Source of the DNA: an uncultured Oscillospiraceae bacterium
GTDB lineage: Bacteria; Bacillota_A; Clostridia; Oscillospirales; Oscillospiraceae
DNA length: 27,612 nucleotides
Assembly (NCBI GenBank): GCA_900754605.1
Contig: CAAEDK010000048.1
Span: 1-27,612 of the forward strand
Direction of reading: 5' to 3'
Part shown: positions 5,823-25,350 of the stretch, in pieces
Position numbering within the stretch: the stretch's first letter is position 1
How the letters are laid out: every line of letters starts with the position of its first letter
The notes under the pieces: generated by a model
Told to the model about the DNA's origin: nothing
Database searches by the model: none
Seen by the model: only the letters and a program-made list of their open reading frames with translations
Position numbers and translations under genes: made by a program

Positions 5823-6203
5823 TCTATTGCAGCATGAAACGAGGAATCCCCGCAGCAGATGTCATCATAGACTATATGATCCTGCAGGTATGCTGGCCCT
5901 CGTTGTCAAAGAAAGAGCGCATCGTCTTTGCAAAGAGTAGCCGGGCTCTAATTCCATACAGTTCCCTGTGGCTGCCCGCGGAAGAAGGCAATTCAGACGC
6001 CCCAGCTGGCTAGACAGATAAACTCAATCATTCGTACCAGACAAGCAAAAACGGGCCCGCGGAAGCATTGCTCCCGCGGGCCCGTTTTTTCATGCTCGCA
6101 GCACGTTCATCAACTGATGCATAGACAGCCGAAAGCAGGACATGCTTCAGCCATTGTCTACCGGAACAGAGTCTAAAACAGCGTGCCATCCCTTTGGTGC
6201 AAA
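5823..6203. other. Intergenic stretch around the 6047-6090 terminator
   Basis: Convergent genes end on both sides. Apart from the strong terminator, there is a 9-bp inverted repeat (ATAGTCTAT at 5819-5827 and its complement at 5867-5875) just after the SEC-C stop, which could be a weak first hairpin. A 68-codon frame at 5807-6013 has no convincing ribosome binding site. No tRNA or obvious attachment repeat is seen, although this junction is a reasonable place for the left end of the conjugative element. Confidence 0.45.
6047..6090. terminator. Strong bidirectional intrinsic terminator
   Basis: The perfect 12-bp GC stem ACGGGCCCGCGG (6051-6062) pairs with 6074-6085. It is flanked by AAAA on the left and TTTTTT on the right, so a U-tract follows the hairpin in both directions. 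It ends the + strand SEC-C transcript and the minus-strand sigma-factor operon. Confidence 0.93.
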
Positions 6204-6764
6204 TCAGGAAAGCGCCCCCGAATACTCATAGTCTCTCTGCCGTTTTAGGACCTTCCTCGCCTTAGCAACCCACGCTGTAACATAGTTGGCCGGTACGCCA
6301 AACAGTTCTCCAATCTCACGGTTGCTGTATCCTTCAGCGAGCAGCCGGATGGCCTGCATCCCTTTTGCAGCCACTCCGGTGGCGTCTGCCTCGGCTCGAT
6401 CCAAAAAGTGAAGGAGACTGAGGCTTGCCTCCCGCTGTTCTGTGGTCTCATCGTCCAGTACCGAACACGGCATCTCATCTGGATCGGTGGCCACTTCCCT
6501 GCCCCGGCGTGTTGCGTACTCCAACTGTGTATAGATCTCATTGCGGATCAGGCGGTAGGCATAGGTCGAAAAGGCCACGTTATACCCTGGCTGGTCCGTC
6601 TGGGCGGCTTTACATAGGCCAATGCATCCAATCTGGAACAGGTCGTCATAGTCATAGATGCAGCCCGTGCCCAATGTATGCACACAGTCCTGGATCACCT
6701 TCCCCACCAAGCCCATATTCTCCTCCACCTTGATTTGCTGTTCATTCGTCAACGGCTTCAACAT
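6204..6764 (-). CDS. Sigma-70-family RNA polymerase sigma factor
   Basis: This 186-residue protein lets RNA polymerase recognise a subset of promoters. Region 2 is clear at about 38-80: DYDDLFQIGCIGLCKAAQ followed by FSTYAYRLIRNEI, the core-binding and -10 recognition segment. Region 4 is the C-terminal helix-turn-helix SNREIGELFGVPANYVTAWV. Region 3 and any N-terminal region 1 are reduced, as in alternative or element-borne sigma factors. The start is ATG 6764, one base after the stop of the DUF3268-like gene and eight bases after GGAGG; an in-frame GTG at 6773 overlaps that site and is less likely. The pair is translationally coupled and shares the structured leader upstream. Its targets may be promoters of the element. 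Confidence 0.9.
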   Translation of the reverse strand: MLKPLTNEQQIKVEENMGLVGKVIQDCVHTLGTGCIYDYDDLFQIGCIGLCKAAQTDQPGYNVAFSTYAYRLIRNEIYTQLEYATRRGREVATDPDEMPCSVLDDETTEQREASLSLLHFLDRAEADATGVAAKGMQAIRLLAEGYSNREIGELFGVPANYVTAWVAKARKVLKRQRDYEYSGALS

Positions 6765-6765
6765 T

Positions 6766-7230
6766 TCATTCACCTCCAGATACCTTTCCTAACCGCTCCT
6801 TCTCTCCCATCCGTTCCTGATACAGTTTCCTGCTCTCCCGGATGACCACCTGACAGTAATACTCTCCCAGATGCCCAATATGGGCGTGAGCCATCGGTGC
6901 CTGCACAATCATGCCCAGCCACTGATAAGCATCACGCTTACTCATGATCCCTGACTGGTACAGACGGTTGAATTCCTTATGCGCGTTATAGCGTAGCCGC
7001 CTCAGTTCCGGTCCCGCCAAACTGCCCATCGGCTTCAATGTCTTTGCATGTGCCATCACAAAGGAATCACAATCCGGATATCTGGAACAGACATAGGCCA
7101 TCGCTCCCTCCTGGTGTACCCTGCATAAACCCTCCGCGCTGCGCAGAACCGCAGGGCTGCCGCAGTGGCAATGTAGGCGCCCACTACCCGGCAGTACACT
7201 ATCCTTGCTGCGGTTTGATTTTCTCTTCAT
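6766..7230 (-). CDS. DUF3268-family zinc-finger-domain protein
   Basis: This is a 154-residue cytoplasmic protein of unknown function. It has a basic start (MKRKSNRSKDS), a first Cys/His cluster (LHCHCGSPAVLR), then YVCSRYPDCDSFVMAH and MGSLAGPELRRLRYNAHKEF, the pattern I know as the DUF3268 zinc-finger-containing domain of phages and conjugative elements. The remainder (KRDAYQWLG, AHIGHLGEYYCQVV) also fits the family. The frame stays open upstream to 7386, but that part overlaps the leader terminator. ATG 7230 has GAGGAGG eight bases before it and is the clear start. It is the first gene after the structured leader and is coupled to the sigma factor. Confidence 0.85.
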   Translation of the reverse strand: MKRKSNRSKDSVLPGSGRLHCHCGSPAVLRSAEGLCRVHQEGAMAYVCSRYPDCDSFVMAHAKTLKPMGSLAGPELRRLRYNAHKEFNRLYQSGIMSKRDAYQWLGMIVQAPMAHAHIGHLGEYYCQVVIRESRKLYQERMGEKERLGKVSGGE

Positions 7231-7294
7231 GCTAAAATCCTCCTCTCGAAGTAATGACATATGACAGACTCGCATCAGCCTGAGCGGAACCGGG

Positions 7295-7407
7295 AAAAAC
7301 GAAAAAGACCGGAAGACCGCTGAAAAAAGACAATGCAGAGCCAAGCGCTGGAATAGTGGTGTCGCATCCAGCCATTGACTCTGCACTGTATTTCAGCGGC
7401 CTTCCGG
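7295..7407 (-). terminator. Intrinsic terminator/attenuator in the leader
   Basis: Domain II of the leader ends in the pairing CCGGAAG...CTTCCGG and is followed on the minus strand by TCTTTTTCGTTTTT (7295-7308). The outer 14 or so base pairs are almost perfect. It lies 65 bases before the DUF3268-like start codon and after a strong promoter, the layout of a transcription attenuator. Confidence 0.75.
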
Positions 7408-7545
7408 CCACATTCTTTTCAGACAAGACCTGCGCGTTGTGGGGCCGCGGGACAGCGGCTCCGTAACGATTCCCCGCACCATTTCAGCAGGTCTGACGCC
7501 ATGGCGCCCCGGCGTATCGAAAGCCTCTACGCAGTATCTTGCTAT
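7295..7545 (-). ncRNA. Structured leader RNA of the DUF3268/sigma operon
   Basis: From the expected transcription start near 7545 the minus-strand RNA folds into two domains. Domain I is closed by AGACCTGC/GCAGGTCT (7426-7433 with 7487-7494) and contains GCCGC/GCGGC with a 6-nt loop plus a bulged GTGGGG/CCCCGCAC stem. Domain II is a hairpin of about 30 bp (7309-7340 with 7379-7407) with an inner GCTGGA/TCCAGC stem, followed by two U-runs. It occupies the 5' leader of a DUF3268 gene. A cis-regulatory candidate called the DUF3268 RNA motif has, as I recall, been described from comparative genomics, and this may be a member; that identification is unverified. It may act as an attenuator or as a stand-alone small RNA. 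Confidence 0.7.
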
Positions 7546-7551
7546 ATTGGA

Positions 7552-7580
7552 ATTATAGCAGAATCCATCCAAAAAGTCAA
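7552..7580 (-). promoter_or_regulatory. Strong sigma-A promoter of the leader RNA/DUF3268/sigma operon
   Basis: On the minus strand TTGACT (7575-7580) and TATAAT (7552-7557) are separated by exactly 17 bases, close to consensus. The flanks are AT-rich. A start of transcription near 7545 gives a leader of about 315 bases to the DUF3268-like start. Confidence 0.88.
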
Positions 7581-7627
7581 TAAAAATCACAAAAAACACA
7601 GTGATTTTCGCAAAAATCCCACTCATT

Positions 7628-7658
7628 TCAGTCTGGGAGTATCCATCTCAGTCTGGGA
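7628..7658. repeat. Two direct repeats, 20-bp period, upstream of the promoter
   Basis: TCAGTCTGGGA occurs at 7628-7638 and again at 7648-7658, exactly 20 bases (about two helical turns) apart. They lie 48-78 bases upstream of the -35 box of the leader promoter and just past the stop of the signal-peptide protein. The same-face spacing suits an activator or repressor dimer. Near-identical decamers recur in the S1-protein coding repeats at 10800-11140. Confidence 0.5.
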
Positions 7659-7670
7659 CAATTTCAGGGC

Positions 7671-8225
7671 TCAGTATTCGTCATCGTCCCCATCCTCCCA
7701 GTTATCACAAACCGACTGCTGGCGCCGTTTGGCAATGTAGAGCGCGGCCAGACCCGCCCCAGCGAGGGCCAAGCCGGTCAGGAACAGGATCAGCGTGCCG
7801 ACTGGGATGCCGCCTGAGTTTGCATCAGGTTCTTCCTGCTGCGCCACATCCGCAGCGGCGTCTTGTGACGGCTCAGCCGGCTCCTGTACAGCCTGGCCTT
7901 GCCCCGTGAGCGGATCTGGGATAGGTACCGTGGAATTGAGGCAGCTGAGGGTATAGGTCTTGCTGCCGCCCAAATCCATGGTCAGTACTCCGCTGCTGTC
8001 TACAACAATGGGGGCCGGGAATACTCCGGCGTCAGTGCGTAGTTCAAACTCTACACCCGCCCAGCGCGTTCCAAGCTGCAGAATCAGTTGATCTGGCTGC
8101 TGTGTCAGTTGTGGTTCTGTGCCATCGGTATCGGCCAAAGCCGCTGGACACAACACTGACATCAACATTACAATCACCAACAGAGACAGGCAGGCCCGTC
8201 CCGTTTTCTTTCTCGTTCTATTCAT
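7671..8225 (-). CDS. Secreted/anchored protein with signal peptide and C-terminal TM helix
   Basis: The protein has 184 residues and no family I recognise. Residues 1-31 are a signal peptide (basic NRTRKKTGR, hydrophobic core, ALADT cleavage region). A compact beta-rich extracellular part (QLILQLGTRWAGVEFELRTD) follows, then a Pro/Glu/Ala-rich linker (about 110-140). One TM helix (about 143-164) ends in KRRQQ and an acidic cytoplasmic tail WEDGDDDEY. This is a type I single-pass surface protein. ATG 8225 follows AGGAG by ten bases. It lies downstream of the DUF4143 ATPase and that gene's terminator. It may be part of the conjugation surface or envelope apparatus; this is inference. Confidence 0.8.
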   Translation of the reverse strand: MNRTRKKTGRACLSLLVIVMLMSVLCPAALADTDGTEPQLTQQPDQLILQLGTRWAGVEFELRTDAGVFPAPIVVDSSGVLTMDLGGSKTYTLSCLNSTVPIPDPLTGQGQAVQEPAEPSQDAAADVAQQEEPDANSGGIPVGTLILFLTGLALAGAGLAALYIAKRRQQSVCDNWEDGDDDEY

Positions 8226-9733: not shown

Positions 9734-11305
9734 TTATCGAGTTGTAGACATATGTGTGATCACACCCCAGATCCGGTTGTTCTCGTGGTTGATACCGAGG
9801 ATGCGCACAGTCGCCCTGGCGCCCCGTGGCGGCCGGCCGCGCTTGGGATAGGTACATAGGCAGTCGACGCCTCCGTCCAGGGATACGAACACGCCGTTGA
9901 GGTCCACCATGCTGACGGTGCCCACGTAGCGGTTGCCCACCACATATTTCTTCAAGGCCTTTTCGTAGGGGTTTTCCATCGCCTGCTTTACCGATGCGGA
10001 CACCCGAGGGTGGCTGCGGTCGCTGCGGTCCACCTCTAGGACCTTGACCAGCACGCGCTGGCCAGGCTGATAGTGCTGTGCGGCATCCACCCACCGCTGA
10101 TAGGAAAGTTCCCGCAGCGGGATGTAGCACTCCGCGCCGAACAGGTCAATAAAGATGCCGGCCCGGATAACGGAGATAACCCGGGCCTCTGCACGGATTC
10201 CTTCATAGATCTGATAGTTGCCGTCCCGGTCGGTACGGAAATAATACTCCCGCCGCTTGAGTGCCATAGCCTCCAGACGGCTGGCAGCCACTACATTGTT
10301 TTCCTGGTCGACGCCCTTGACAATGTAGTCCACCTCCGCACCCAGTCTCTTATTGAGCAGATAGTGGAGTACATCACCCCGAGGCTGCCCGCGATAATCC
10401 TCCGGCTCCTCAATAGCCTCCAACACCGGAATGATCACTTTGAAGTCACCATGGTAGATGACCGCATAGGACATCTCCGGGTTGTCTGCCAGCCGCTCCA
10501 CACCCTGGATTGTGCCGGTGAGTATCTTCTTACTTTTAAGGGATTCCACCAGATCCAGCAGATCGCTGCGCAGCCGGTCTGTATCTGTCTGCACGGTACG
10601 CTCGGCGTCAATGGAGACGACCCTCTGGCGGCGCCGGCCAGGCATCCGGAGTTTTTGGGACTGCCCTGTATTGGTTTCCTCCTCATCGGAGGCCTCAGCG
10701 TCAGAAGCATCGGATTTTGGTTCCGCCTCAGATACCTTCTTGCGGGTGCTCCTGCGGCGCCTTGCGGGCGGCGCGCCGGCCTCCGCATCCTGAACTGATT
10801 CCGAGTCAGTCTGGGGCGTATCGTCATTTTCACCAGGCTGAAGCCGCTCATCGCAATCTCCTCCCGAATCAGACTCGGTCTGGGAATCGGAGGCACCTTC
10901 GCCAGGTTCGGTACCTGGTTGCCCGCCAGGCTGAGGCAGCTCATCCTGAAAATTATACTCAGTCTGGGGAACGTCATCAGGTTCCAAACTGGATTCTGTT
11001 TCAGTCTGGGAACCAGAGTCGCCTTCACCAGGTTCAGCACCAGGCTGAAGCGATTCATCTTGGGATGCATCCCCATCATTCTCAGTCTGGGGATGCGGTG
11101 CCTGGCCATCCGCAGCTTCGCCCAAATTCTCGTCAGTCTGGGAGGCATCCGGGTCCAATGTAGTCGCACTTGCCAGTTCCAGATCGATCATGCCCGCAGG
11201 CGGGCTCCCATCTGGGTACAATTCCGAATCGGTCAGGCCGGCAGTAATGCCATCCTGCTTTTCTTCAGAGTTCTGTTCCTGAATCTCTTTCTTGGTTTTT
11301 GCCAT
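9734..11305 (-). CDS. Double-S1-domain RNA-binding protein with acidic repeat N-terminus
   Basis: The protein has 523 residues. Residues 1 to about 200 are low-complexity and strongly acidic, built from loose repeats around SQTE/PQTE and LQPGxEPGEG, with a basic patch PPARRRRSTRKK near 180. After a middle domain, two OB-fold S1 domains follow at about 370-440 (EARVISVIRAGIFIDLFGAECYIP...LVKVLEVD) and 450-523 (YVGTVSMVDLNGVFVSLDGGVDC). S1 domains bind single-stranded RNA or DNA. It follows the VirD4 gene by 42 bases with AGGAGG ten bases before ATG 11305. Such proteins recur beside coupling proteins in clostridial conjugative elements, but their role there is not established. Confidence 0.85.
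   Translation of the reverse strand: MAKTKKEIQEQNSEEKQDGITAGLTDSELYPDGSPPAGMIDLELASATTLDPDASQTDENLGEAADGQAPHPQTENDGDASQDESLQPGAEPGEGDSGSQTETESSLEPDDVPQTEYNFQDELPQPGGQPGTEPGEGASDSQTESDSGGDCDERLQPGENDDTPQTDSESVQDAEAGAPPARRRRSTRKKVSEAEPKSDASDAEASDEEETNTGQSQKLRMPGRRRQRVVSIDAERTVQTDTDRLRSDLLDLVESLKSKKILTGTIQGVERLADNPEMSYAVIYHGDFKVIIPVLEAIEEPEDYRGQPRGDVLHYLLNKRLGAEVDYIVKGVDQENNVVAASRLEAMALKRREYYFRTDRDGNYQIYEGIRAEARVISVIRAGIFIDLFGAECYIPLRELSYQRWVDAAQHYQPGQRVLVKVLEVDRSDRSHPRVSASVKQAMENPYEKALKKYVVGNRYVGTVSMVDLNGVFVSLDGGVDCLCTYPKRGRPPRGARATVRILGINHENNRIWGVITHMSTTR
10790..11150 (-). repeat. Degenerate coding repeats in the S1-protein N-terminus
   Basis: Six copies of the decamer family CAGTCTGGGR (near 10808, 10873, 10956, 11002, 11081 and 11134), interleaved with CCAGGCTGAAG/CCAGGTTC-type units, encode the (S/P)QTE and PGxEPGEG-type motifs. 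Spacing is irregular (46-83 bases), in multiples that keep the frame. Repeat-driven length variation between related elements is expected. Confidence 0.65.
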
Positions 11306-11347
11306 GGTATTGAGTCCTCCTTTGTTTTTTCATCGTGCTTTAATTAC

Positions 11348-13339
11348 TCAAAAATCCGTCGGCGGCCTAGCGCTCTCATAGAGGGTCTTGGGCCGTTTGG
11401 CGGGTTTTGACGGTTGTTCTGGCGGCGCAGCAGCCGGGGGCGCGCTAGTTTGAGCTGGAGCAGCAGGCTTCTCGCCCTGTTTTGCTGCAGACGCTCCGCG
11501 ACCTGCTGTTTTCTCTTTTGCCGTCTTCTTTTTTTCCGGTGGTGGAGTTTCCTCCGCTTGTGGGTGGACCATCACCGGAGCGGGCTTCTCCTCAGGATGT
11601 GCAGGCTTGTAGTCCCGGATATGGGCCTTCACGCATTCTTTGGCATACGGGTGTTCCGTAAAGTCAAACTTCTTGGCCCGCAGAACCTTCTGTCCGCGGA
11701 TGATGATGAGCAGTTCATCGTTGGGCAGGCGCAGCACCTCATCTGGAGTCAGTACGCGGCGGCGGCCGATTCCCTCTGTGTAGCGGTATTGAGGAATAAC
11801 CTGCGCAAGGGCGATACTTTGTCGTGTGGTCATAGTGGAGTTGACTTCCACTGTCATGTCTCCGCTGCGGGCACTGAAGTATTGCGCCGACACATCATCA
11901 GTGGCTCCCAACATAACCTGCGTATCCGCGTTGCCTAATAGTTCCGCCCACAGATTATCGGGATACCGGTTCTGAAGCTGAGGCAGGCTCTGGCAGACCA
12001 TCAAAATCTGCAGGGCCCTTGAGCGTACTGTGCTGAGTCGCCGGCCAAAGTCAGGGATCACGCCAATGTTGTTCATCTCATCCAATATGATATTGACCGG
12101 CACCTTGCATCGCTGCTCCGGCATACTGTCCGCATAGCGCACCAACTTAATGAACAAAAATACAAAGAAAAGAGACGACAAAAACTCAAGAGATGAGTTT
12201 TGGTCGTCCAAGATGATAAAGTATGCGCATTTTTGTTTGCCCGGCAGTGACAAATCAATATCCGAGCGACGGGTAATCTGACGCACGGCTTCGCTTTGCA
12301 ACACCTGAAGCCTGGTTCCAAGGCCAAGCACAATGCCAGCCCGTACTGCATCACTGCCTTGACTGAACAGGCTGTATGGAGCCTTAGCCGGATGGTCCAG
12401 CGGCAGCCGATCAAAAATCATAGTCAGTTCTTTTTCTGTGTTCTGGGTGATCATTTGATAGACGGCCGGCAGGTTTTTCTCCTCCGGTTTGCGGGTAGAG
12501 TCCATATCCACATAAAGGATCAGGCTTTTGAGCAGATTTGCCTCGCCATTATCCCAGAAATGATCACTCTCACCATCTCCCTTCGTGTTGGCGATGATGA
12601 CATCGGTAAGCACCTGTGCCATGAGGGTGTCCCCGCCCAGGTCGAACATACAGTTCCAGGAGTCGCCAAGTTCCGGCTGTAACAGATTGTAGACCCGAAC
12701 TAGATAGCCGTGCTTGCGAAACAGTTCTGCCGTGTCCGCATACATTTCGGATTTTGGATCTGAAATCACCACGGATTCCCCGCGCCGGATACTCTGGAAC
12801 AGCGCCGGGCGGATGATTCCGCGGGATTTCATTGTTCCGCTTGCGCCGAAGACGGCAATGTGCTTATTGAGCCGGGTATCCTCCGGCAGACAAATGACGG
12901 CTCCTTTCTCCGTCTTGCCTAAGATAATCCCCTTCGCATGGCCGGGGCTGCTGATCTCCAGGATGGCACGCATCTCCTTGTCGCTCATCCACCCCGCTGT
13001 GCCATAGGTCCCCCGCTTACTGCGGGAGAAATTGCGAGGATCATAGTCGCCATTGCCAAATCGATCTTGGAAATGGATGAAAAGATATACACCACTGCCG
13101 ATGACTGCCACAAGGGCAACGCATTTCAGACCGCTTGCGGTCATGGCGCTCCGCCAGCAGCACACCGGCGAAAAACAGATCGCGTCCATTGTGGCTTTGC
13201 CAGTGATCCCGCCCTCTGCAAGCCACTTCTGATAATTGAGGTTGAATTGGTTGACCAACCCACCTATGTAAAAAATCGCCGCCATACTCAGTATGACGGC
13301 GAGTACAATTCCTATTGTGCGAATATACTTCGACTGCAT
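11348..13339 (-). CDS. VirD4/TraG-type conjugation coupling ATPase
   Basis: This 663-residue inner-membrane motor brings the relaxase-DNA complex to the type IV secretion channel. Two TM helices lie at about 8-30 and 70-90. Walker A is GASGTMKS (165-172), followed by the family block SVVISDPKSEMYADTAELF. Walker B and the TraM-recognition region appear as NIILDEMNNIGVIPDFGRRL and ILMVCQSLPQL. From about residue 578 to the end it is a Pro/Ala/Lys-rich disordered tail ending RPPTDF. ATG 13339 follows AGGGGGG by six bases, 18 bases after the winged-helix gene. Other coupling-protein names such as TcpA would describe the same role. Confidence 0.95.
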   Translation of the reverse strand: MQSKYIRTIGIVLAVILSMAAIFYIGGLVNQFNLNYQKWLAEGGITGKATMDAICFSPVCCWRSAMTASGLKCVALVAVIGSGVYLFIHFQDRFGNGDYDPRNFSRSKRGTYGTAGWMSDKEMRAILEISSPGHAKGIILGKTEKGAVICLPEDTRLNKHIAVFGASGTMKSRGIIRPALFQSIRRGESVVISDPKSEMYADTAELFRKHGYLVRVYNLLQPELGDSWNCMFDLGGDTLMAQVLTDVIIANTKGDGESDHFWDNGEANLLKSLILYVDMDSTRKPEEKNLPAVYQMITQNTEKELTMIFDRLPLDHPAKAPYSLFSQGSDAVRAGIVLGLGTRLQVLQSEAVRQITRRSDIDLSLPGKQKCAYFIILDDQNSSLEFLSSLFFVFLFIKLVRYADSMPEQRCKVPVNIILDEMNNIGVIPDFGRRLSTVRSRALQILMVCQSLPQLQNRYPDNLWAELLGNADTQVMLGATDDVSAQYFSARSGDMTVEVNSTMTTRQSIALAQVIPQYRYTEGIGRRRVLTPDEVLRLPNDELLIIIRGQKVLRAKKFDFTEHPYAKECVKAHIRDYKPAHPEEKPAPVMVHPQAEETPPPEKKKTAKEKTAGRGASAAKQGEKPAAPAQTSAPPAAAPPEQPSKPAKRPKTLYESARPPTDF

Positions 13340-13357
13340 GGCAGTCCCCCCTTCCAG

Positions 13358-14509
13358 TCAGATCTCATCTGCCTGAGGTCCGATCCCCAGCGCCGCCTCC
13401 AAGTCAGTCATGCTGATTTCACGCAGCTGTGCCCGAGGGCCGATATACCCGTGCAGGAATGGGCATTGCCAGGGGAAACACATGATCTCATATGGGACCT
13501 TGCTGTGCTCCAGCGCCTGCCGCACCCGCACAAGCCGTGCGATGTCGCCGTCCAAGTGGGAGAGAATCAGGGTATTCCCGTTTTGAGCGTCATACTCCAT
13601 CACGCCCGGTCCCACTGTACGCATCTGCTCCGGAAAGACAACTGACAGGACCCGCTCTTTCCAGTCTGGGAGCGTTAGGAGCCTCAGCAGTCGGATTCCC
13701 TGCTCTGTCATTGGGATAAAATGTACGTGTGGATAGATACGGTCAAAACGCAGTTCTATGCGGCCGCTTTTATCCGACTCCAGCAAGGTCTGCAGGGCCA
13801 AATCCATATTCTCTCCCAACAGAAGTGCATGGTCTGCCCGGGCGGGGCCTGCATTCATACGGGATAATTCTTCCAAATGCCGTGCTGTCTTGAACTCGCC
13901 CATACCGCTCCACTTCATCACTGCATTGCGCGTGTTATAGACAGCATAACAGTAACCAGGGCTGAAGAGCGCGCCCGTGAGCCGTGTGAAAATCGTCTTG
14001 TTCATTTCCGCATGGTCCAGCCGCTTCACGGATTTTGCCGTGTAAAAACTCGCCCCATCCAGTACAACCTGCTGAATTGCCCGCCTTTGGAGAACAGGCA
14101 GTAGAAAAGGACGTGTCTCCACGTCCGCAACCAAGCACATCGCCACCGTCTCTGCGACTCGGTGGTTGCGCTCGATATGTTCCGCACTCCCAGAAAAACG
14201 ATGATTTCGAGTGATGTCTAAATAGTGTGCGAGGGCTGCCGGATGGAGGGTCTGCAGGAGGGGGAGCGCACTCTTATACAGCCGGATTGTCCGCCGCTCG
14301 CCCCTCCCACTTGTGGTAATCATTTTACAGGAGCCAAGGTCTGCCCCAGTGGAGGTGCGGAAGTCCTGCACATGCTCCAGCCGGTGGACAAGGTCCTCCA
14401 GCGTCCGGCTGCTGCCTAACAGATGCAGAGAGCGCATGGGGTATTCCCCAGCAATGGCCAGTAAAAGCAGCAGGCGGTAAACATGACTGCCCGGTCGCAG
14501 TGTGATCAT
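13358..14509 (-). CDS. Winged-helix protein, Replic_Relax-like
   Basis: The protein has 383 residues. The N-terminal ~90 residues look like a winged helix (YRLLLLLAIAGEYPMRSLHL...LEHVQDFR) followed by a wing with basic residues (TTSGRGERRTIRLY). The middle and C-terminal parts are mixed alpha/beta and unrecognised. Overall layout and neighbourhood next to VirD4 resemble replication-relaxation (Replic_Relax) proteins of conjugative elements, which are thought to bind near origins; this is a moderate-confidence assignment. ATG 14509 overlaps the stop of the small basic gene as ATGA, so coupled translation replaces a Shine-Dalgarno. An in-frame TTG at 14566 with GGGAGG is an alternative start. 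Confidence 0.65.
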   Translation of the reverse strand: MITLRPGSHVYRLLLLLAIAGEYPMRSLHLLGSSRTLEDLVHRLEHVQDFRTSTGADLGSCKMITTSGRGERRTIRLYKSALPLLQTLHPAALAHYLDITRNHRFSGSAEHIERNHRVAETVAMCLVADVETRPFLLPVLQRRAIQQVVLDGASFYTAKSVKRLDHAEMNKTIFTRLTGALFSPGYCYAVYNTRNAVMKWSGMGEFKTARHLEELSRMNAGPARADHALLLGENMDLALQTLLESDKSGRIELRFDRIYPHVHFIPMTEQGIRLLRLLTLPDWKERVLSVVFPEQMRTVGPGVMEYDAQNGNTLILSHLDGDIARLVRVRQALEHSKVPYEIMCFPWQCPFLHGYIGPRAQLREISMTDLEAALGIGPQADEI

Positions 14510-14700
14510 TGGGACTGCCCGGTCGTGTCTGATTTTAAGGCATGGCTTTTCCTCTCTTTGCCGCAAAACGCCTCCCTGTCACCTTGGGAAACCCTTGATT
14601 TTTCAGGTATTTTCCTGCGTTTCGGATTTACGTGGAAAAATGGGGTGAAACTGGGCCTCAAATCCCGTACTTTTTTAGTCCCAAATTTCGCTCGTTTCAT
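14506..14700 (-). CDS. Small basic protein, 64 residues
   Basis: This short frame starts at ATG 14700, nine bases after GGAGG, inside the last 26 bases of the DUF6100-like gene. It ends in an ATGA overlap with the winged-helix gene. The product is very basic (MKRAKFGTKKVRDLRP, NPKRRKIPEKSR, GKERKSHALK) and has no recognised domain. The ribosome binding site and the stop-start overlap are the evidence that it is translated. A basic protein of this size could bind DNA or RNA, or it could be mainly a coupling leader for the next gene. Confidence 0.55.
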   Translation of the reverse strand: MKRAKFGTKKVRDLRPSFTPFFHVNPKRRKIPEKSRVSQGDREAFCGKERKSHALKSDTTGQSQ

Positions 14701-15364
14701 ACAGTCTTTCCTCCTCCAAATCATTCGCCTGTTCTGCCGCCAGCCATGTGGGGAACCGGCTGGTTGGGATTACATAGACCTCCGTCTGATCCTCTGCCCC
14801 GGCGGCGCTGCAATAGTAGTGGGCGCATCGCCGCGGCGCATCATCCGGAAGCAGGTACAGCGTGATGATGTCTGTCACCATGTTGACCTCAATGTTATCG
14901 TGGTCCCGATAGGCACGCTCCGGACGTTCCCGACAGTACACATGGCGGTAGGCCAGCACGCAATTTTGATAGAGAGCCGGCGGCTTTCCAGCAAAATAGC
15001 GCCGCAGCGCCGGGTAGAGATACTGCTGGATGTAGATGGGGGAGCCGGACTCCTTCTTCGGCAGCAGTGCAGGGATCTGCAAACGAAACCACCCACGCTT
15101 TGCATATCCCATCTCCACGGGGATCGTGTCCATCAGCATCTGCTCCTTCAGTTCCGCTGCCTTGGGATGTCCGGTATAGGCTGGCAGGACACGCGCAAGA
15201 AGCGCGAGTTTCTCTACCTCCGCGGAAAATGCGAATGCCGCCCCGAACGCACCGGCCATGTCCTCCCGCTCCAGCAAACGGCGAGTACGGGCTAATTCCA
15301 CCGCCGCTCTTCCCGCCCGATGCTCCGCTGCTCCAAGCGCCCGCTCAAACTCAGACCGCGGCAT
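14675..15364 (-). CDS. DUF6100-family protein
   Basis: This 229-residue protein has a helical N-terminal half (FERALGAAEHRAGRAAVELA) and a conserved C-terminal part containing GWFRLQIPALLPKKESGSP, YQNCVLAYRHVYCRERPERA, DHDNIEVNMVTDIITLY and CAHYYCSAAG. I recognise this as DUF6100, a family found in clostridial conjugative elements; its function is unknown. The frame is open upstream to 15496, but ATG 15364 has GAGGGGG six bases before it. The 14-base overlap with the DUF5697-like gene also favours this start and indicates coupling. Confidence 0.75.
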   Translation of the reverse strand: MPRSEFERALGAAEHRAGRAAVELARTRRLLEREDMAGAFGAAFAFSAEVEKLALLARVLPAYTGHPKAAELKEQMLMDTIPVEMGYAKRGWFRLQIPALLPKKESGSPIYIQQYLYPALRRYFAGKPPALYQNCVLAYRHVYCRERPERAYRDHDNIEVNMVTDIITLYLLPDDAPRRCAHYYCSAAGAEDQTEVYVIPTSRFPTWLAAEQANDLEEERLYETSEIWD

Positions 15365-15893
15365 AGGTGTCCCCCTCGCTTTCCGTAAAGAACCGTACAT
15401 CCGGCGTCTCCTGTCCGTTGTAATCCACAGTCGCAAACAGGTGAGGCGCAGATGGCAAGACCAGCTCCTGCGCCATGTTGATATGTGGCAGGACAAGGAT
15501 ATACCGCAGATCCTCCTGAGGCTGAAGCAGTCTGGTCAGATGCTGTTCGCCATCGTAGAGGACAACAATCTCATATCCAATATCTTCTTTGAGGAAGAAA
15601 ATCTGGGACGGATAAGTAGCGGGATAGTGAGCCATAGGGTCCACCCTGTCAATGAACTGCAGCAACACCCATACGGCAAGGATCATGCGCTGATCCGGCT
15701 GGCACATGGGGTCCACCCCCAGATAGTACCCGCCGGAGATTTCGTGGAGCATGACCTCGTTCTTGAGCGCACGAATAATCTTTTCTGCCGTCTTAGGCGG
15801 TTTGTCCTTCAGCATTCGGACAATTTGCGCTTTAGGCAGCGGCCCATACTCTGTCAGCCAATGGATGATATACTGTTCTTCCTGTAACAGCAT
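15351..15893 (-). CDS. DUF5697-family protein
   Basis: The protein has 180 residues. The N-terminus is a predicted winged helix (EEQYIIHWLTEYGPLPKAQIV followed by KTAEKIIRALKNEVMLHEISG). The core contains DQRMILAVWVLLQFIDRVDP and IGYEIVVLYDGEQHLTRLL, the pattern I associate with DUF5697, a family of conjugative-element proteins of unknown role. ATG 15893 follows AAGGAGGG by ten bases and lies inside the 3' end of the HD-GYP gene (40-base overlap). DNA binding is plausible from the N-terminal fold only. Confidence 0.75.
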   Translation of the reverse strand: MLLQEEQYIIHWLTEYGPLPKAQIVRMLKDKPPKTAEKIIRALKNEVMLHEISGGYYLGVDPMCQPDQRMILAVWVLLQFIDRVDPMAHYPATYPSQIFFLKEDIGYEIVVLYDGEQHLTRLLQPQEDLRYILVLPHINMAQELVLPSAPHLFATVDYNGQETPDVRFFTESEGDTYAAV

Positions 15894-16507
15894 AGTTTTG
15901 TTTCCCTCCTTCCTCTATGTGTATAAATGGGAGAAATACGTATTTTGCAGGTTATACGTGTACTGTCCCGATATAGGGCCAATACCTGTGGAAGATTGTC
16001 CAGCAGCAGTCTGACAATGGCACCATCCAATTTCACGCCAGCGCACGATTTTAGGTAATCGCTGACTCGACGGATATCCCACGGACGCTTATAAGGGCGA
16101 GGCGAGATCAGGGCATCGAAAACGTCTGCCACTGCTACTATTTTTGCATGAGGGTGAATTTCAGCATCTTGCAGCCCCAAATAGCCGCTGCCGTCCAGCC
16201 GTTCATGGTGCTGCAAGGCCACAACAGAAGATGTCCCCAGCATCGTTCCGGTTTGTAGCAGCAGAAAATGTCCAATTGACGTATGTTTCCGCATTGATGA
16301 CCGTTCTACTTCTGATAAACTGCCCGATTTACAACGGATGCGCACCGGGATCATTGTTTTCCCAATATCGTGAAGCAATGCCGCCTGATACACTTCGTGT
16401 ACTTCAGCCGAGTCATAATCCGCATGTTCAGCCAGTATTCTGCTGATCTCCGCAGTCCGCTTGCTGTGTGCGATCTCCTCCGCTGTCAACGAGGTGAAAA
16501 TATCCAT
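15854..16507 (-). CDS. Solitary HD-GYP-domain phosphohydrolase
   Basis: This 217-residue protein consists of one HD-GYP domain, the class that degrades cyclic di-GMP or related dinucleotides. Visible metal and substrate motifs are ALLHDIGK, the KHTSIGHFLL helix, QHHERLDGSGY, VAVADVFDALIS and RPYK. Two deviations are seen: GYP reads GYL, and the late AGTHFD-type segment reads AGVKLD. There is no receiver or other sensory domain. The last ~35 residues (KIRISPIYTHRGRRETKLCC...) do not look like domain sequence and overlap the DUF5697-like start. ATG 16507 follows AGAGGAG by eight bases, but lies 80 bases inside the helicase frame. Confidence 0.85.
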   Translation of the reverse strand: MDIFTSLTAEEIAHSKRTAEISRILAEHADYDSAEVHEVYQAALLHDIGKTMIPVRIRCKSGSLSEVERSSMRKHTSIGHFLLLQTGTMLGTSSVVALQHHERLDGSGYLGLQDAEIHPHAKIVAVADVFDALISPRPYKRPWDIRRVSDYLKSCAGVKLDGAIVRLLLDNLPQVLALYRDSTRITCKIRISPIYTHRGRRETKLCCYRKNSISSIG

Positions 16508-18680
16508 TTCTGCAACTCCTCTCTTCTAAATTCTTTTTTGAATTTGATGCATTCCAAACCATACCCATCGCATCCAGTTTTGCGATCTGTTCCTGGGTGA
16601 TAAACCCACTAGACGCAGTGCCCGCACGAATTGCTCTCATTCGCTGAATGAATTTCCCAAGTTTGCATCCATTCTCCGGCACAATATAGTTCCCAGGCAC
16701 CCTAATATGCCCCTCCCTCCGATAGTATCGGAGCAGCTCCTCATAGTAAGTATCAAATGGCAATGGAGATGCCTGGACTTGCCAAACCATCCCTAAGTCA
16801 TTGAGCATCTCAATTTGCCGGTCTGTCAGAACAATATCATGGCCCGTTCCCCTCTTTGCCTGCCTTACACAATTGATAAAGTTGCCCAAATGGCAACCAG
16901 TATCAGGATCAATAAACCTTGTGGGAACTTTGATGTGCCCTTCTCGGCGGTAAAACTTTATCAGTTGCTGGTAATAATAATCGAAGTCCCGATATGGGTG
17001 CTCTCTTTTCACCCACTTCATGCCAAGAGCATTCAGTCTATTGATCTGGTCCTGCGATAAATGTCCCCTATCGGTCTTTTTTCTAATGTTGCGTAAACGT
17101 GTCAGATAAAGGCCCAGTTTACATCCTGTCGATGGATTTATGTATGATTGTGGAATATCAATGTGCCCTTCTCTCTCAAAGTAAACGAGCAATTCTTTAT
17201 AGTAGTCATCGAATGTACGTCTGGTTGGTTGTCGTTCAATCAGAAAAGTCGACCAGCCAGGTAGCATCTCCAGCCTTTCCTTTCGGGCTACTGATAGACT
17301 GTTGTGCTGGATATATAGGATTTGTTCCGATAGCCACCTCCCTATTTTGATGCCTCGGTAACATGTGCGGCTATGCGGATATTGGCCGTATTCGTGGTAA
17401 AATTCCTGGAGGATGGAGTAGCAAAAATCCCATCGTCCCGCCCGCGTAAATAGATGATCGAACTTCTCAAGGATGGCTTCGAATTGTGTGGGGACCCCAG
17501 ACATGTAAAAGGGTATAGGCGTGTTCTTCCCTTTCCCACTGCTGGGATGGTGGGAAAACTCAATATTGAATACACGCTGACCAGACTCTTCAACACGTGC
17601 AGACTCATAGTTGTTGACCAAATCAAAAATTACCGGGGATGTACTACCATCCGAACTGCAGGCGAGACAGCGTCCAATCTGCTGTAAATAGACAATCGGG
17701 CTTATCGTAGGGCGTAACATGACAACCCCATCCACATCCTTGATGTGGATACCCTCATTCAGCATATCCACGCAGTAGAGCAACCGTATTGCATTCCTTT
17801 CATTATCCCCAGCAAAGGCGTTGAGTTCAATATCAGCGGCCTTTTCATCTGAACGGCAGACATACTCCCTGATTTTCTTACCTGGTCCCAGCCAACGGTG
17901 CATGTCTTCCCGACATTGCGCAATATGTTCAAGATTCCGGCAGAATACGATCAACTTTGCAAATCTATTGGGCATATGGCACTTAAATATTTCGTCAATT
18001 CCTTGCGCTTCTGCCATATTTCTTTTAAGGCTTTCTAACAATGAATAACCAGCAGTACGAGCCCTCCCATAAGAGGCAACCTGCGTTAATGCGGTTTCCA
18101 GAGAAGAGACCCTTTCGTTCATCAGGATATCTCCCAATACATAGTGCGGCACCGGCAGGACCTTATCATTGATTGCATCTTGAAGGGTATAATAACTTGC
18201 AATACTTCCGTGAAAAAGTTCCTCAGACATATCGCGTGTGCCGGCCTTATCCAGATACCGGACTGGGGTAGCTGTAAATCCAATTAAGAAGCATTCAACA
18301 TACAAAGCGAGAAGATGGTCAACCGCACTTCCCCAGTCATCCGCCCCACAGCGGTGAAATTCATCAAGGATAATGTAGTCCGGCTCCAGTTTCCCAAGTT
18401 CGTCCTCGTGAAGCAGGCAAAGTTTCTGATATGTCATCATGGTTGTATGGAGAAGCACATCTGTATGCCCAGCATGATGTTTCAGTTGATTGAAGATATG
18501 CGTAGATGGTGCGAGATACAAAAACGAGTTATTCGGCCGGCGTTCTATAAAAGCCAGCGCAACAAAACTCTTCCCAGTTCCAGTAGGCTGGATAACCGCA
18601 GCACGGCGTGTATACTTGAGGGCCTCCTCCAAATGGTTGAGTGCAGCTTGGTTATGTGGGTAAAGTTCAATCTTCGGCAT
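16428..18680 (-). CDS. SF2 helicase with C-terminal HA (helicase-associated) repeats
   Basis: The protein has 750 residues. The N-terminal half is a superfamily 2 helicase: Walker A GTGKS (34-38), DEFH box (106-109), GFTATP (about 139), and motif VI as QQIGRCLA. The C-terminal half carries three clear helicase-associated repeats, each with a YYxxLLxYxxREGHIxxP, GCKLGxxxxxxR and LxxLGMxW pattern, plus a weaker one before them. HA repeats are thought to bind nucleic acid. ATG 18680 follows GGAGGG by five bases and overlaps the VirB4 stop by 14 bases, so the in-frame codon six residues upstream is unlikely. After NASNSKKN the last ~40 residues overlap the HD-GYP gene out of frame. The role in transfer or defence is unknown. 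Confidence 0.9.
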   Translation of the reverse strand: MPKIELYPHNQAALNHLEEALKYTRRAAVIQPTGTGKSFVALAFIERRPNNSFLYLAPSTHIFNQLKHHAGHTDVLLHTTMMTYQKLCLLHEDELGKLEPDYIILDEFHRCGADDWGSAVDHLLALYVECFLIGFTATPVRYLDKAGTRDMSEELFHGSIASYYTLQDAINDKVLPVPHYVLGDILMNERVSSLETALTQVASYGRARTAGYSLLESLKRNMAEAQGIDEIFKCHMPNRFAKLIVFCRNLEHIAQCREDMHRWLGPGKKIREYVCRSDEKAADIELNAFAGDNERNAIRLLYCVDMLNEGIHIKDVDGVVMLRPTISPIVYLQQIGRCLACSSDGSTSPVIFDLVNNYESARVEESGQRVFNIEFSHHPSSGKGKNTPIPFYMSGVPTQFEAILEKFDHLFTRAGRWDFCYSILQEFYHEYGQYPHSRTCYRGIKIGRWLSEQILYIQHNSLSVARKERLEMLPGWSTFLIERQPTRRTFDDYYKELLVYFEREGHIDIPQSYINPSTGCKLGLYLTRLRNIRKKTDRGHLSQDQINRLNALGMKWVKREHPYRDFDYYYQQLIKFYRREGHIKVPTRFIDPDTGCHLGNFINCVRQAKRGTGHDIVLTDRQIEMLNDLGMVWQVQASPLPFDTYYEELLRYYRREGHIRVPGNYIVPENGCKLGKFIQRMRAIRAGTASSGFITQEQIAKLDAMGMVWNASNSKKNLEERSCRNGYFHLVDSGGDRTQQADCGDQQNTG

Positions 18681-21273
18681 CTTTTCCCTCCATTCCACCA
18701 GTCAAACCCGCAGAAGAACCATTGCTTCCGCTTTCCGCAATATCGGCTACCGCCTTTAATTCGTTGAGCATAGCCTCCAGTTCAGCCCGGTCGGTAGTGA
18801 TCATCTGCTGCTCCTCCCGGGATGCCTTGATAATGACCGGCACTTTGTTGCTGTTGCTGGAGATCAGCGCCTCACCGCGCTCAAACTGTGTGATGCTGCG
18901 GATCTCAGTTCGAGTTAATTTCAAGACATCTTTCACATATTCTGCCTCGTCCGGCTCCAAGTTGAGGATGATTTTCGTCTTGGAATTATTCAGAATTGCT
19001 CTGCCATAACGGCCGTCCTCTAAGCCAAAAAAATCGGAGAGGTCCTGCGTTGCCGCAAGGGCGCCTCCTCCGTAGCCTCGAATAATTTTGAATATTTCCA
19101 GACAAAACTCCGCAGCCTGTTTGTTGGCCGCGCCGCCAATCAGTTTCCAGATCTCGTCGATAAACACCATTTTGCGTCTGGTACGGTCTGCCTTCACCTG
19201 GTCCCACACATAGTCCAACGCAATCATCATACCTACCGGCAACAGTTTGCCCTTGAGTTCCGAGATGTCCAGCACAACATACTTATTGTCTAGGTTTACA
19301 TTGGTCTGGCGGTTAAAACTCTGGGCGCTGCCTGTAACAAAGCGGCTGACTATGGTGGCCAGCCGGGTAGTCAGTGGATTTTCCTTGAGTATCTCATAGA
19401 GATCTCCCAGGATTGGCATAGTCTTGATCTCTCCCCTGCTCTGGTCAACATAGATAGAATTGTTATCGTGGGTAATCCCGAACTTGGCGTAGGTCTTGAC
19501 CAGGGCCTCGTCCAGCATCTGCTCCTCTTCATTATTCATATCGGGGATCAGAAGGGAGAAGAAAATCATCAACTGCTGGATCTTTTTTGCCAGCATGGAG
19601 TCGATGTCGTTGTAATCCAATTCGTCGATCAGTTCCATTTCCGGTGTGAGTGTAGGACGAATCTCCATGACGTTGATGCAGGCGCTGGAACCCGGGGCCA
19701 GTTTGATATAGGTACCGCCAATTTTGTGGCAGGCACGCTTGAACTCATGGCCTTTGAGCGGAGCAATAATATAGCACTGGACGCCGCGCATCCGAAGCCT
19801 GAGCGCCATCACCTGCATGGTAAAGGTCTTACCGGCGCCAGATGTCCCGCAGATAGTAAAATTGGCATTCTTATTGACTTTTGTATTAAATGGATCGACA
19901 ATACACAGCGAATTGTTATGCCGGTTAAGACCCAAGAGAATGCCATTGTCATCAGACAGTTCAAAACTGGTGAACATATAGGTCGAGGCCGCGCCTGAAG
20001 TAAGCACATTTCGTTTGGACTTGCGCTCCAGACCAGGATCGAGGTAGAGAAATGGCATGGTGGATCGCAGTGCCGCCTCCTGTTGAAACAGGCAGTCACC
20101 TACTTGGATGTCCATGGACTTCATCAAGTCACTCATCTGCTGCTTACGCCACTGCAGTTCTTCGTAGGTAGGGGCAGATATCGTAATGAGCACCGACATA
20201 TAGAACAGGTCCTCATTCCGGCTGGAGAGTCCCTGCTTGATGTAGTAACCGGCCTGGATAGAGCCAGCCAGTTCCTCATAGTCAGTGGAGGTGTCCTGCA
20301 GTTCTCGCAGTTTGGTGCGGTTGAGCCGGATGCGCTGGGCCACTCGATCAATGGTCTTACCACGGATCTCGCGGTGCAGATGCAGATCCACATCTACGCC
20401 CTCGCCTGCATTGATGAGTGAAGACATCCAACCTCCCCGCACCTGCTGAGGAAATCCGTTTTTGCGAATATATAAGTAGGTATAGTAGGTCCCATCCATA
20501 ATAATGTAGCCAGCATGACTCAAGTCAAGGCCGCGAGGGGCCACAAAGTTGGATGTCCGGATCTTCGGGACTGGATCGATGCCGACAACTCGCCTTTTTG
20601 CCGCCATCGCATCCACCACCACGCGGTTGAGCCGACTCTGGAAAGGGTCCTCCACGCAGGAACGGCGATTGAAGTACATATACAGGATTTCAGCTACAAA
20701 TGCGTCTTCATCTTTTGGCTGTACAATACTGTTGCCGCATTGGGCGAAATAGGTCTTGGCATTCTGCGTCACCGTCTGCAACGCTGCGTAGACCTCACCA
20801 TAATCGTTATCGGACTGGCGGCGCACCGCCTCGTATTGAAAAATCAGGAAAAACCGGCGGGACAATGCCTCACGGCTACCTTCCTCCCGGATGAACTGGA
20901 TAGTACCACGCCCCAATTCCCGGCAGGCCGTTACGTCCTCGCTCTCAATGTCCGCCTCCAGTCCCGCCACATACTTGTCAGAATCCGCTTTGCGGGTTAC
21001 GGACTTAAACTGCAGGCGCATGGGCGAAATTTTAAGCCAGCTGGCAAACGTAGAGATAATGCCCCACTGCTCCTCATTGGAGCGAAGCAGAAAGTTGATG
21101 GGTTCAATTTCCAGGATTTTGAGGTACCGGCCATCTGTAGTTTCAACGATCCCGTTTCTGATCTCTTTGAGGGGAATGTAGTCCTGTACGAACTCCAGAC
21201 GGGCGGCTGCTTTTTTCCGACGGCCTGGGCTTTTGTGCCGACGGGCGTTTCCTGTGTGTGACTGTCGTGCCAT
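18667..21273 (-). CDS. VirB4/TraE-type conjugation ATPase
   Basis: This 868-residue ATPase energises assembly of, and transport through, the type IV secretion channel. A very basic N-terminus (RRHKSPGRRKKAAAR) precedes the conserved block IPLKEIRNGIVETTDGRYLKILEIEPINF. Walker A is CGTSGAGKT (about 475-483), Walker B is KMVFIDEIWKL (about 700) and FKIIRGYGGGALAATQDLSDFF follows as the arginine/Gln region. ATG 21273 has AGGAGG 13 bases upstream, longer than ideal, with a second AGGA at about eight bases. The start lies 131 bases inside the PrgI-family frame. It is the best-conserved marker of the conjugation module. Confidence 0.96.
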   Translation of the reverse strand: MARQSHTGNARRHKSPGRRKKAAARLEFVQDYIPLKEIRNGIVETTDGRYLKILEIEPINFLLRSNEEQWGIISTFASWLKISPMRLQFKSVTRKADSDKYVAGLEADIESEDVTACRELGRGTIQFIREEGSREALSRRFFLIFQYEAVRRQSDNDYGEVYAALQTVTQNAKTYFAQCGNSIVQPKDEDAFVAEILYMYFNRRSCVEDPFQSRLNRVVVDAMAAKRRVVGIDPVPKIRTSNFVAPRGLDLSHAGYIIMDGTYYTYLYIRKNGFPQQVRGGWMSSLINAGEGVDVDLHLHREIRGKTIDRVAQRIRLNRTKLRELQDTSTDYEELAGSIQAGYYIKQGLSSRNEDLFYMSVLITISAPTYEELQWRKQQMSDLMKSMDIQVGDCLFQQEAALRSTMPFLYLDPGLERKSKRNVLTSGAASTYMFTSFELSDDNGILLGLNRHNNSLCIVDPFNTKVNKNANFTICGTSGAGKTFTMQVMALRLRMRGVQCYIIAPLKGHEFKRACHKIGGTYIKLAPGSSACINVMEIRPTLTPEMELIDELDYNDIDSMLAKKIQQLMIFFSLLIPDMNNEEEQMLDEALVKTYAKFGITHDNNSIYVDQSRGEIKTMPILGDLYEILKENPLTTRLATIVSRFVTGSAQSFNRQTNVNLDNKYVVLDISELKGKLLPVGMMIALDYVWDQVKADRTRRKMVFIDEIWKLIGGAANKQAAEFCLEIFKIIRGYGGGALAATQDLSDFFGLEDGRYGRAILNNSKTKIILNLEPDEAEYVKDVLKLTRTEIRSITQFERGEALISSNSNKVPVIIKASREEQQMITTDRAELEAMLNELKAVADIAESGSNGSSAGLTGGMEGKDAED

Positions 21274-21595
21274 AGTGGTATCCTATCCTCCTGTAATGCA
21301 ATCGGCGGCGCCGTACCCAAAACAGAACCATATTGGTGACAAACCGGAGCAGAGAGTCCCCGCCAATGCCCATCAGGGCGAAGACGCCCAGTGGCAACAG
21401 CGTCACGGTCATCACAACAACTTTTGCAGTAGCTGGAAGATGCATCCACATCAATTCCGGATAGCCCACAAGCAAAAGCAGAATGCATGCCTCTACTGTA
21501 TTTCGTGTCTCCAGTAGACCGCCCAGCAATTTTCCAGAATCAGTGTAGTTTGGCGGGATAGTATAGACATTGCTGAACTCTCGATCATCCGCCAT
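21143..21595 (-). CDS. PrgI-family membrane protein
   Basis: The 150-residue product has the PrgI layout: VYTIPPNYTDSGKLLGGLLETRNTVEA, two adjacent TM helices (about 35-53 and 58-80) and a basic FWVRRRRLHYRRIGYHY segment. PrgI proteins are VirB3-like partners encoded just before VirB4. ATG 21595 follows GGAGGAG by seven bases and overlaps the NlpC/P60 stop by 11 bases. Family members usually end soon after the basic segment. The last ~45 residues here, a Pro/Ser/Arg-rich tail, are read out of frame through the VirB4 start region. Confidence 0.85.
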   Translation of the reverse strand: MADDREFSNVYTIPPNYTDSGKLLGGLLETRNTVEACILLLLVGYPELMWMHLPATAKVVVMTVTLLPLGVFALMGIGGDSLLRFVTNMVLFWVRRRRLHYRRIGYHYGTTVTHRKRPSAQKPRPSEKSSRPSGVRTGLHSPQRDQKRDR

Positions 21596-23069: not shown

Positions 23070-23100
23070 AGAGATCACCTCGCTTGTACCGAAATATGAA

Positions 23101-23132
23101 GGCAGGCATACCCGTTCCCAGGTATGCCTGCC
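23101..23132 (-). promoter_or_regulatory. Intercistronic hairpin between the VirB6-like and NlpC/P60 genes
   Basis: A perfect 12-bp stem (GGCAGGCATACC at 23101-23112 with 23121-23132) and an 8-nt loop are followed on the minus strand by TTCATATTTC. It lies just after the VirB6-like stop. The U-run is broken, so it would act as a partial terminator or an mRNA stabiliser that sets the ratio of the two products. Confidence 0.6.
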
Positions 23133-23138
23133 CGATGG

Positions 23139-25286: not shown

Positions 25287-25308
25287 GCTTTTGTAACCTC
25301 AAAAGGGG

Positions 25309-25334
25309 TGGGGGCGACCCATCGGCCGCCCCCA
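25309..25334 (-). promoter_or_regulatory. Intercistronic hairpin between the SpaA-type and VirB6-like genes
   Basis: TGGGGGCG (25309-25316) pairs with CGCCCCCA (25327-25334). On the minus strand the stem is followed by CCCCTTTTGAGG, so a short T-run ends in the ribosome binding site of the VirB6-like gene. It may be a leaky terminator that separates surface-protein from channel expression. Confidence 0.5.
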
Positions 25335-25350
25335 TCAAAGTCGGATACCA

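Follow-up and report, generated by a model that had tools for sequence, protein, structure and literature searches.

The stretch analysed here, hereafter the window, comprises 27,612 nucleotides (nt) from an uncultured Oscillospiraceae bacterium (contig CAAEDK010000048.1, positions 1 to 27,612). On its minus strand, genes for a DUF3268 zinc-finger protein and a sigma factor are preceded by a leader of about 315 nt (7545 to 7231), the length already given in a preliminary description, which had regarded the leader as an attenuator-type structured RNA controlling a sigma factor borne on an integrative and conjugative element (ICE). The leader and the two genes behind it consist of the following features.

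7552 to 7580, minus strand: sigma-A-type promoter, with -35 TTGACT (7580-7575), a 17-nt spacer and -10 TATAAT (7557-7552)
7428 to 7543, minus strand: DUF3268 RNA (RF02966), a multi-helix, sensor-like domain, identified by its Rfam score and by helix covariation in 17 aligned copies
7396 to 7411, minus strand: GNRA-capped hairpin H (GUGGCC-GGAA-GGCCGC), the proposed antiterminator, overlapping the 5' arm of T
7307 to 7409, minus strand: terminator hairpin T, from a predicted fold and paired changes; in its lower stem, 7409-7401 pairs with 7307-7315
7335 to 7384, minus strand: inner terminator hairpin with conserved CAGAGTC and GGCTCTG arms, from paired changes; compatible with either state of the leader
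7298 to 7306, minus strand: U-tract TTTTTCGTT, from a terminator scan
6766 to 7230, minus strand: DUF3268 zinc-finger protein of 154 amino acids, first gene of the operon (PF11672, 134.2 bits)
6204 to 6773, minus strand: sigma-70 family factor, with a GTG start that overlaps the DUF3268 stop (PF04542, region 2, 43.8 bits; TIGR02937, 58.4 bits)

The domain at 7428-7543, previously described as cruciform-like, matched the full DUF3268 RNA model of Rfam (positions 1-121 of RF02966) with 70.9 bits, compared to a gathering score of 65.3 (E = 1e-12). This covariance search bore out the identity named in the preliminary description. RF02966 was the one family above its gathering score in the window, on which the Rfam scan and a permissive scan of 7200-7700 agreed. 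A permissive match of MIR840 on the terminator hairpin (31.8 bits, where the gathering score is 150) was rejected as a long-hairpin artefact. Among 17 aligned sequences, 18 of the 28 predicted pairs of the DUF3268 RNA displayed a double change that kept the pair, and the whole leader had a predicted fold of -134.3 kcal/mol, compared to -108.7 (standard deviation 5.1) for 100 shuffles (z = -5.0). According to PMC10573300, which cites the class to Weinberg et al. 2017, the RNA contains a k-junction (crystal structure 8ITS) that A. fulgidus L7Ae fails to fold, and no function has been ascribed to it; PMC8191799 had earlier named it a probable k-junction. AGAC and GGAA stretches, candidates for the two sheared G-A pairs of the k-junction, occur in the window copy and are mostly conserved across leaders.

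Homologous leaders were collected using a pattern built from the first copies, which matched at least 119 stretches in genome contigs; 58 of the 119 listed hold a DUF3268 RNA. A covariance model built from 17 copies matched these 58 stretches, seven of eight copies from genome searches (L140 was missed) and the window. These 66 matches, together with L013, L005 and L140, gave 69 leaders, which were reduced to 54 distinct ones by dropping ten cut-off or duplicate and five identical records. The 54 include L140, although it scores below the Rfam cut-off and was not matched by the 17-copy model. All 54 were aligned (alignment A2), with hand-set terminator bounds for L042, L093, L055 and L118, and 50 of them, without L093, L055, L102 and L140, were used in a further alignment (A3). 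A single copy of the RNA was found in the window's genome. In even draws, the family yielded it in 12 of 400 genomes, the order in 8 of 394 and the class in 5 of 391; these draws overlap, and each contains the window's own genome. No DNA match of 6204-7700 was found in plasmid and phage DNA sets. Two viral contigs matched the pattern, neither of them a model match, and carriage of the leader by phages or plasmids was therefore rejected. Matches of the DUF3268 protein do exist in plasmids and phages, all below 60% identity.

The promoter TTGACT-17-TATAAT had been proposed as near-consensus, and it matches the consensus at 11 of 12 positions, with TG ahead of the -10 element and a predicted RNA start near 7545. 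It was the one promoter-like site reported in 6100-7700 on both strands; since shuffles average 1.2, the site alone is not significant. Its significance derives from conservation of spacing and score across the leaders. The upstream DNA was long enough for this comparison in 58 leaders (53 of the 54 distinct leaders and five cut-off records), and in every one of them the best promoter site had a 17-nt spacer. The score was at least 9/12 in 56 and at least 10/12 in 53 of these, compared to 16% and 3% of shuffles, respectively. The -10 element ends 2-4 nt ahead of the model start in 53 of 58 leaders (exceptions L086, L024, L104, L118 and L140), and the DUF3268 RNA is therefore predicted to form the very start of the transcript. 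Immediately ahead of the -35 element, an AT-rich short hairpin followed by a T-run (AAATCAC...GTGATTTTTATT, 7584-7607) may insulate the leader from the type IV secretion system operon located upstream.

The long hairpin ending in an intrinsic terminator also held up. The hairpin 7307-7409 with its tail TTTTTCGTT has a predicted energy of -69.5 kcal/mol; a simple terminator scan, which admits loops of up to 8 nt, does not list it. Among the 54 distinct leaders, 52 had a called terminator, and one was visible by eye in the other two, L093 and L055, where it had been left uncalled because the start codon was mis-assigned. The pairing at the base of T is conserved: 94.2% of cells were paired, compared to 89.2% in shuffles, 7 of 10 pairs displayed double changes, and on each of five measures none of 500 shuffles reached the observed value. 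The inner hairpin (87.6% of cells paired, 81.5% in shuffles) is conserved in sequence as well as in pairing. The distance from the end of the terminator to the start codon had a median of 28 nt and was at most 40 nt in 41 of 52 leaders, an analysis that includes the hand-set bounds of L042 and L118. In the window, the ATG (7230) is separated by 67 nt from the end of the U-tract and by 76 nt from the hairpin, a gap longer than this median; any transcript started further upstream would likewise run through this terminator. A second promoter between terminator and start codon was rejected, as the interval scores in the 52 leaders were no higher than those of shuffles (mean 6.13 compared to 6.04; 3 of 52 reach 9/12). 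A terminator this close to the start codon in the relatives, together with the lack of a second promoter, indicates that the genes need read-through. An intrinsic terminator between the sensor domain and the start codon is the arrangement found in transcription-terminating riboswitches. The 3' arm of T, when freed (CUUCC, 7311-7315), could in addition pair with the ribosome-binding site AGGAGG (7239-7244), which would add translational control.

The same layout might be read as an independent small RNA, in which the product of about 250 nt ending at the terminator would be the functional molecule and the genes behind it would be fed by leaky read-through. Rfam lists the type of RF02966 as sRNA, a promoter and a strong terminator bound a discrete RNA in nearly every copy, and the domain is highly structured. 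However, the short terminator-to-start-codon distance and the lack of a second promoter above shuffles argue against this explanation, as does the finding that the same genes follow almost always, and a plain small RNA end would have no use for a hairpin that competes with the base of the terminator. We consider such a function quite improbable.

A competing hairpin of this kind is predicted in most leaders. In the window, H and T have bases 7396-7409 in common and are therefore mutually exclusive, as are the alternative pairings of transcription-terminating riboswitches. H was intact, with four pairs and a GNRA loop (GGAA, GAGA, GAAA or GUGA), in 41 of the 54 leaders of alignment A2, including L118, where it does not overlap the terminator. 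Beyond these, L057 was intact after realignment, and L035, L046 and L013 have a five-base, a GGAG and a six-base loop, respectively. Within H, 92.3% of cells were paired, compared to 87.4% in shuffles; 3 of 4 pairs displayed double changes, and on three of five measures none of 500 shuffles reached the observed value. Changes in the H loop are compensated on the other arm of T. The clearest case is the second loop base, whose T pair (7404-7312) ranks third among the pair-like covarying columns of the leader. Paired changes, which the preliminary description had expected of homologous leaders, were thus present in the RNA helices, H, the base of T and the inner hairpin.

H could also be nothing but the 5' arm of T seen alone, with no switch and a leader that sets a constant low level of expression. 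T is far more stable, the sequence conservation of H could be required by T alone, and several clades are without H. On the other hand, GNRA-capped self-complementary arms are rare elsewhere: among 142 other long-arm hairpin-plus-T-tract sites, drawn from loci up to L034 and possibly including hairpins inside genes, a self-hairpin with a GNRA loop was present at the 5' base of one, and a self-hairpin with any tetraloop at that of 23. Moreover, the paired changes and mostly GNRA loops of H are maintained, with compensation on the other strand of T. In L118, where the terminator lies elsewhere, H is kept with a different stem (CGUC-GGAA-GACG) and is therefore no mere by-product of T. This makes the by-product explanation unlikely, and we regard H as a probable antiterminator, judging from the alignments and from predicted folding.

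Partition-function calculations are consistent with an exchange between the two hairpins. Before the 3' arm of T is made, the probability of H exceeded 0.5 in 45 of the 54 platform stretches and in 41 of the 50 whole leaders; with the 3' arm present, that of T did so in 52 of 54 and 48 of 50, respectively. In the window, the terminated fold has a predicted energy of -120.9 kcal/mol, compared to -96.1 with the 3' arm masked. Termination is thus the predicted default, and read-through would require kinetics plus a bound signal.

Several observations weigh against a general antiterminator role of H. Because the energy gap of about 25 kcal/mol is large, H cannot win at equilibrium unaided. Only four pairs of H were counted, they lie where the sequence is highly conserved, and the shuffle control is not a probability; on two measures 8 and 24 of the 500 shuffles reached the observed value, and one slid version of H ties on the number of pairs with double changes. 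It is weak or broken in L054, L055, L101, L024, L104, L059, L088, L093 and L089. The competition with T is not universal, since there is no overlap in L118 and the scan's own terminator in L042 is the inner hairpin. Single-sequence folding did not reproduce helices P2 and P3 of the sensor domain (medians 0.02 and 0.20), so that the folding models are uninformative on the sensor fold. A covariation screen between the DUF3268 domain and the platform detected no helix and yielded isolated weak pairs, for example 7484-7339, 7447-7381 and 7452-7408. Docking of H on the k-junction domain is therefore unsupported, within a screen that detects base-pair-like changes only. Among the leaders with a defective H, L054, L055 and L101 have lost it and carry another short hairpin (CUUCC-CGGCC-GGAAG) that occludes the same arm, which is suggestive, although in a single clade.

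Across the collection, the order promoter, DUF3268 RNA, predicted hairpins H and T, and genes is established as common to dozens of loci, with paired changes in both hairpins. This layout and its conservation lend good support to the DUF3268 leader being a cis-acting attenuator. More specifically, the leader at 7545-7298 is probably a transcription attenuator in which a signal, sensed by the DUF3268 domain, would keep H in place, block the base of T and permit read-through. During transcription, H is predicted to form first. T would then zip from the inner hairpin downward and displace H last, at the base pairs beside the U-tract, which would be those important for release. In the absence of a signal, T would win and the transcript would end; with the signal, H would persist and RNA polymerase would continue into the DUF3268 and sigma genes. 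A metabolite, an ion or a protein are candidates for the signal. The genes thereby expressed would form a short operon that comprises DUF3268, sigma and, in many of the relatives, also signal peptidase I, situated at one end of a type IV secretion system (T4SS) cluster. The attenuator proposed in the preliminary description therefore stands in layout, RNA identity and conservation and is extended by the competing hairpin, whereas neither a sigma factor as the sole output nor an ICE location was upheld.

The arrangement resembles transcription-terminating riboswitches in that a structured 5' domain is followed by exclusive antiterminator and terminator hairpins before the start codon. It differs in that the DUF3268 RNA has no known ligand and in that the role of competitor falls to a tiny local hairpin at the T base rather than to a long antiterminator helix. 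A control of genes of a Gram-positive conjugative element by termination and RNA antitermination has a parallel in the Tn916 terminators and the antiterminator RNA canT (PMC11658703). Unlike canT, which is processive and works with heterologous terminators, a single local terminator is here overlapped by its own competitor. A processive antiterminator RNA of the canT, put or EAR type, acting on RNA polymerase itself, is accordingly very unlikely: immediately behind the RNA stand a single terminator and two or three genes instead of a long operon with many terminators, and the competing-hairpin layout fits a local switch.

Attenuators are known on such conjugative elements; tet(M) of Tn916 is controlled by leader-peptide attenuation, with read-through feeding regulators of the element. 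A corresponding control by ribosome stalling is extremely improbable here and was rejected. Short frames preceded by a Shine-Dalgarno sequence occurred in 9 of 54 leaders with unrelated peptides, none occurred in the window, and thus, unlike in tet(M), there is no conserved leader peptide.

As previously described, the leader precedes a DUF3268-like gene coupled to a sigma factor, which in the window overlap. Where the flank reached 600 nt or more, DUF3268 follows the leader in 48 of 52 loci; where it reached 1,150 nt or more, sigma follows in 40 of 47, a count that includes a remnant in L066. Flanks permitting, a signal peptidase I gene stands behind at least 34 of the 54 leaders, and it was confirmed with PF10502 in the six tested. 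Sigma is thus not the sole output. Signal peptidase I stands after DUF3268 without sigma in nine loci (L042, L093, L051, L130, L104 and the short contigs L067, L025, L024 and L128); in L104, a RhuM-family gene stands between the two. In the window, no such gene was noticed behind sigma. The enzyme may process surface proteins of the element. Six signal peptidase I genes (PF10502) behind DUF3268 or sigma in RNA-led operons are as follows.

L042, 3541-3939: signal peptidase I
L093, 6438-6878: signal peptidase I
L130, 651-1154: signal peptidase I
L104, 835-1272: signal peptidase I
L051, 1564-1962: signal peptidase I
L212, 1286-1666: signal peptidase I

As DUF3268 is the commonest gene behind the RNA and its product has a basic N-terminal tail and invariant cysteines, the attenuator might instead be controlled by a protein: DUF3268 itself, the S1-domain protein of the element or a host factor would bind the leader and set read-through, in an autogenous control rather than a small-molecule switch. 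An S1-domain RNA-binding protein is encoded in the same cluster, and the sequence conservation of the inner terminator hairpin is likewise in favour of this explanation. Against this, L131 keeps the whole leader and sigma without DUF3268, and L086 keeps the leader with neither. DUF3268 also often occurs without the RNA, with 62 protein matches in 46 of the 400 family genomes, compared to 12 of 400 for the RNA. A predicted DUF3268 fold (predicted local distance difference test 84.9) gave no Foldseek match in the PDB at an E value of 0.001 or better, and the sequence matched three PDB entries, all at E 1 or worse; the fold search thus provided nothing informative on RNA binding. We consider protein control a doubtful explanation, yet one to be reckoned with.

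Of 30 DUF3268 loci examined, six have the RNA by the model; in 16 others, which have no RNA model match, DUF3268 is paired with a sigma factor that is more distant, and no leader similar to the DUF3268 RNA was seen in the RNA-less loci read. The RNA thus marks one lineage of the module. Upstream of the RNA-less DUF3268 genes of L154, L159, L161, L171, L175, L176 and L177, a shared TTYACAAAAARTTYACARATT-like sequence was noticed by eye, possibly an operator or iteron. Two further loci deviate in their genes: in L086 (2615-4332) the place of DUF3268 and sigma behind the leader is taken by a lipoprotein-like gene and a resolvase (PF00239), and in L066 (5486-5598), a decaying copy, the leader is intact while DUF3268 is gone and sigma is a remnant.

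Upstream of the leader lie the following genes.

7671 to 8225, minus strand: p184, a small protein upstream of the promoter, with no Pfam or NCBIfam match
9734 to 27570, minus strand: T4SS cluster encoding an S1-domain protein, VirD4 (CD1115 family), DUF6100, DUF5697, a VirB4-like protein, NlpC/P60, a VirB6-like protein and SpaA

The VirB6-like label is our assumption from gene order, as no family matched. VirD4 scored 394.8 with NF045973 (cut-off 250), which makes it a conjugal transfer protein of the CD1115 family; the VirB4 shows a resemblance to NF045971 that stays under the cut-off (297 compared to 325). We counted both the T4SS coupling and the VirB4-type ATPase as present. The p184 gene was found upstream of 36 of 48 leaders. 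In 12 genomes of which up to 20 kb upstream was read, it adjoins the RNA in all 12 and VirD4 occurs in 10, being absent from the stretch read in G271 and G918. The S1-domain RNA-binding protein (9734-11305 in the window) recurs in 10 of these 12 upstream stretches.

With respect to mobility, the nearest matches to the recombinase and relaxase families searched in the window's genome (G000) lie about 295 kb (PF00589), about 81 kb (PF07508, with an internal stop) and about 1.9 Mb (PF03432 relaxase) away, in a search confined to these three families. Since the searched families are at least 81 kb away, we refer to a T4SS cluster and not to an ICE: the VirD4 and VirB4 genes agree with the earlier term 'ICE-borne', which is not established for the window copy. 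In L042 (by Pfam) and L100 (by similarity to L042), a tyrosine recombinase or integrase is located just behind the operon. Near the sigma end of the element in L199, L201 and L207, from three genomes of two families, seemingly the same gene of 523 amino acids was noticed by eye, which hints at a shared insertion neighbourhood or cargo.

In open-licence literature, covering titles and the starts of abstracts, no link of the DUF3268 RNA to conjugation or attenuation was found. The RNA class itself is already known, and novelty therefore lies in the attenuation mechanism with the competing hairpin H and in the client operon; the Rfam model ends at 7428, and the promoter, H, the terminator and the inner hairpin of the window leader lie outside it. 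For an RNA whose k-junction has a known structure and, according to PMC10573300, no ascribed function, the comparison thus supplies recurrent client genes, a promoter and an expression platform with a competing hairpin. Tentatively, and with more doubt than confidence, the DUF3268 RNA may represent a new class of riboswitch sensor, in which a k-junction aptamer would read a signal and, through a GNRA hairpin clamped on the terminator base, decide when a family of T4SS elements of Clostridia makes the sigma factor, the zinc-finger protein and the signal peptidase and so prepares for mating. If the attenuator operates as proposed, a T4SS element that occurs in several families of Clostridia would have its regulator gated by an RNA signal, which would provide a control point for horizontal gene transfer that is independent of a repressor protein.
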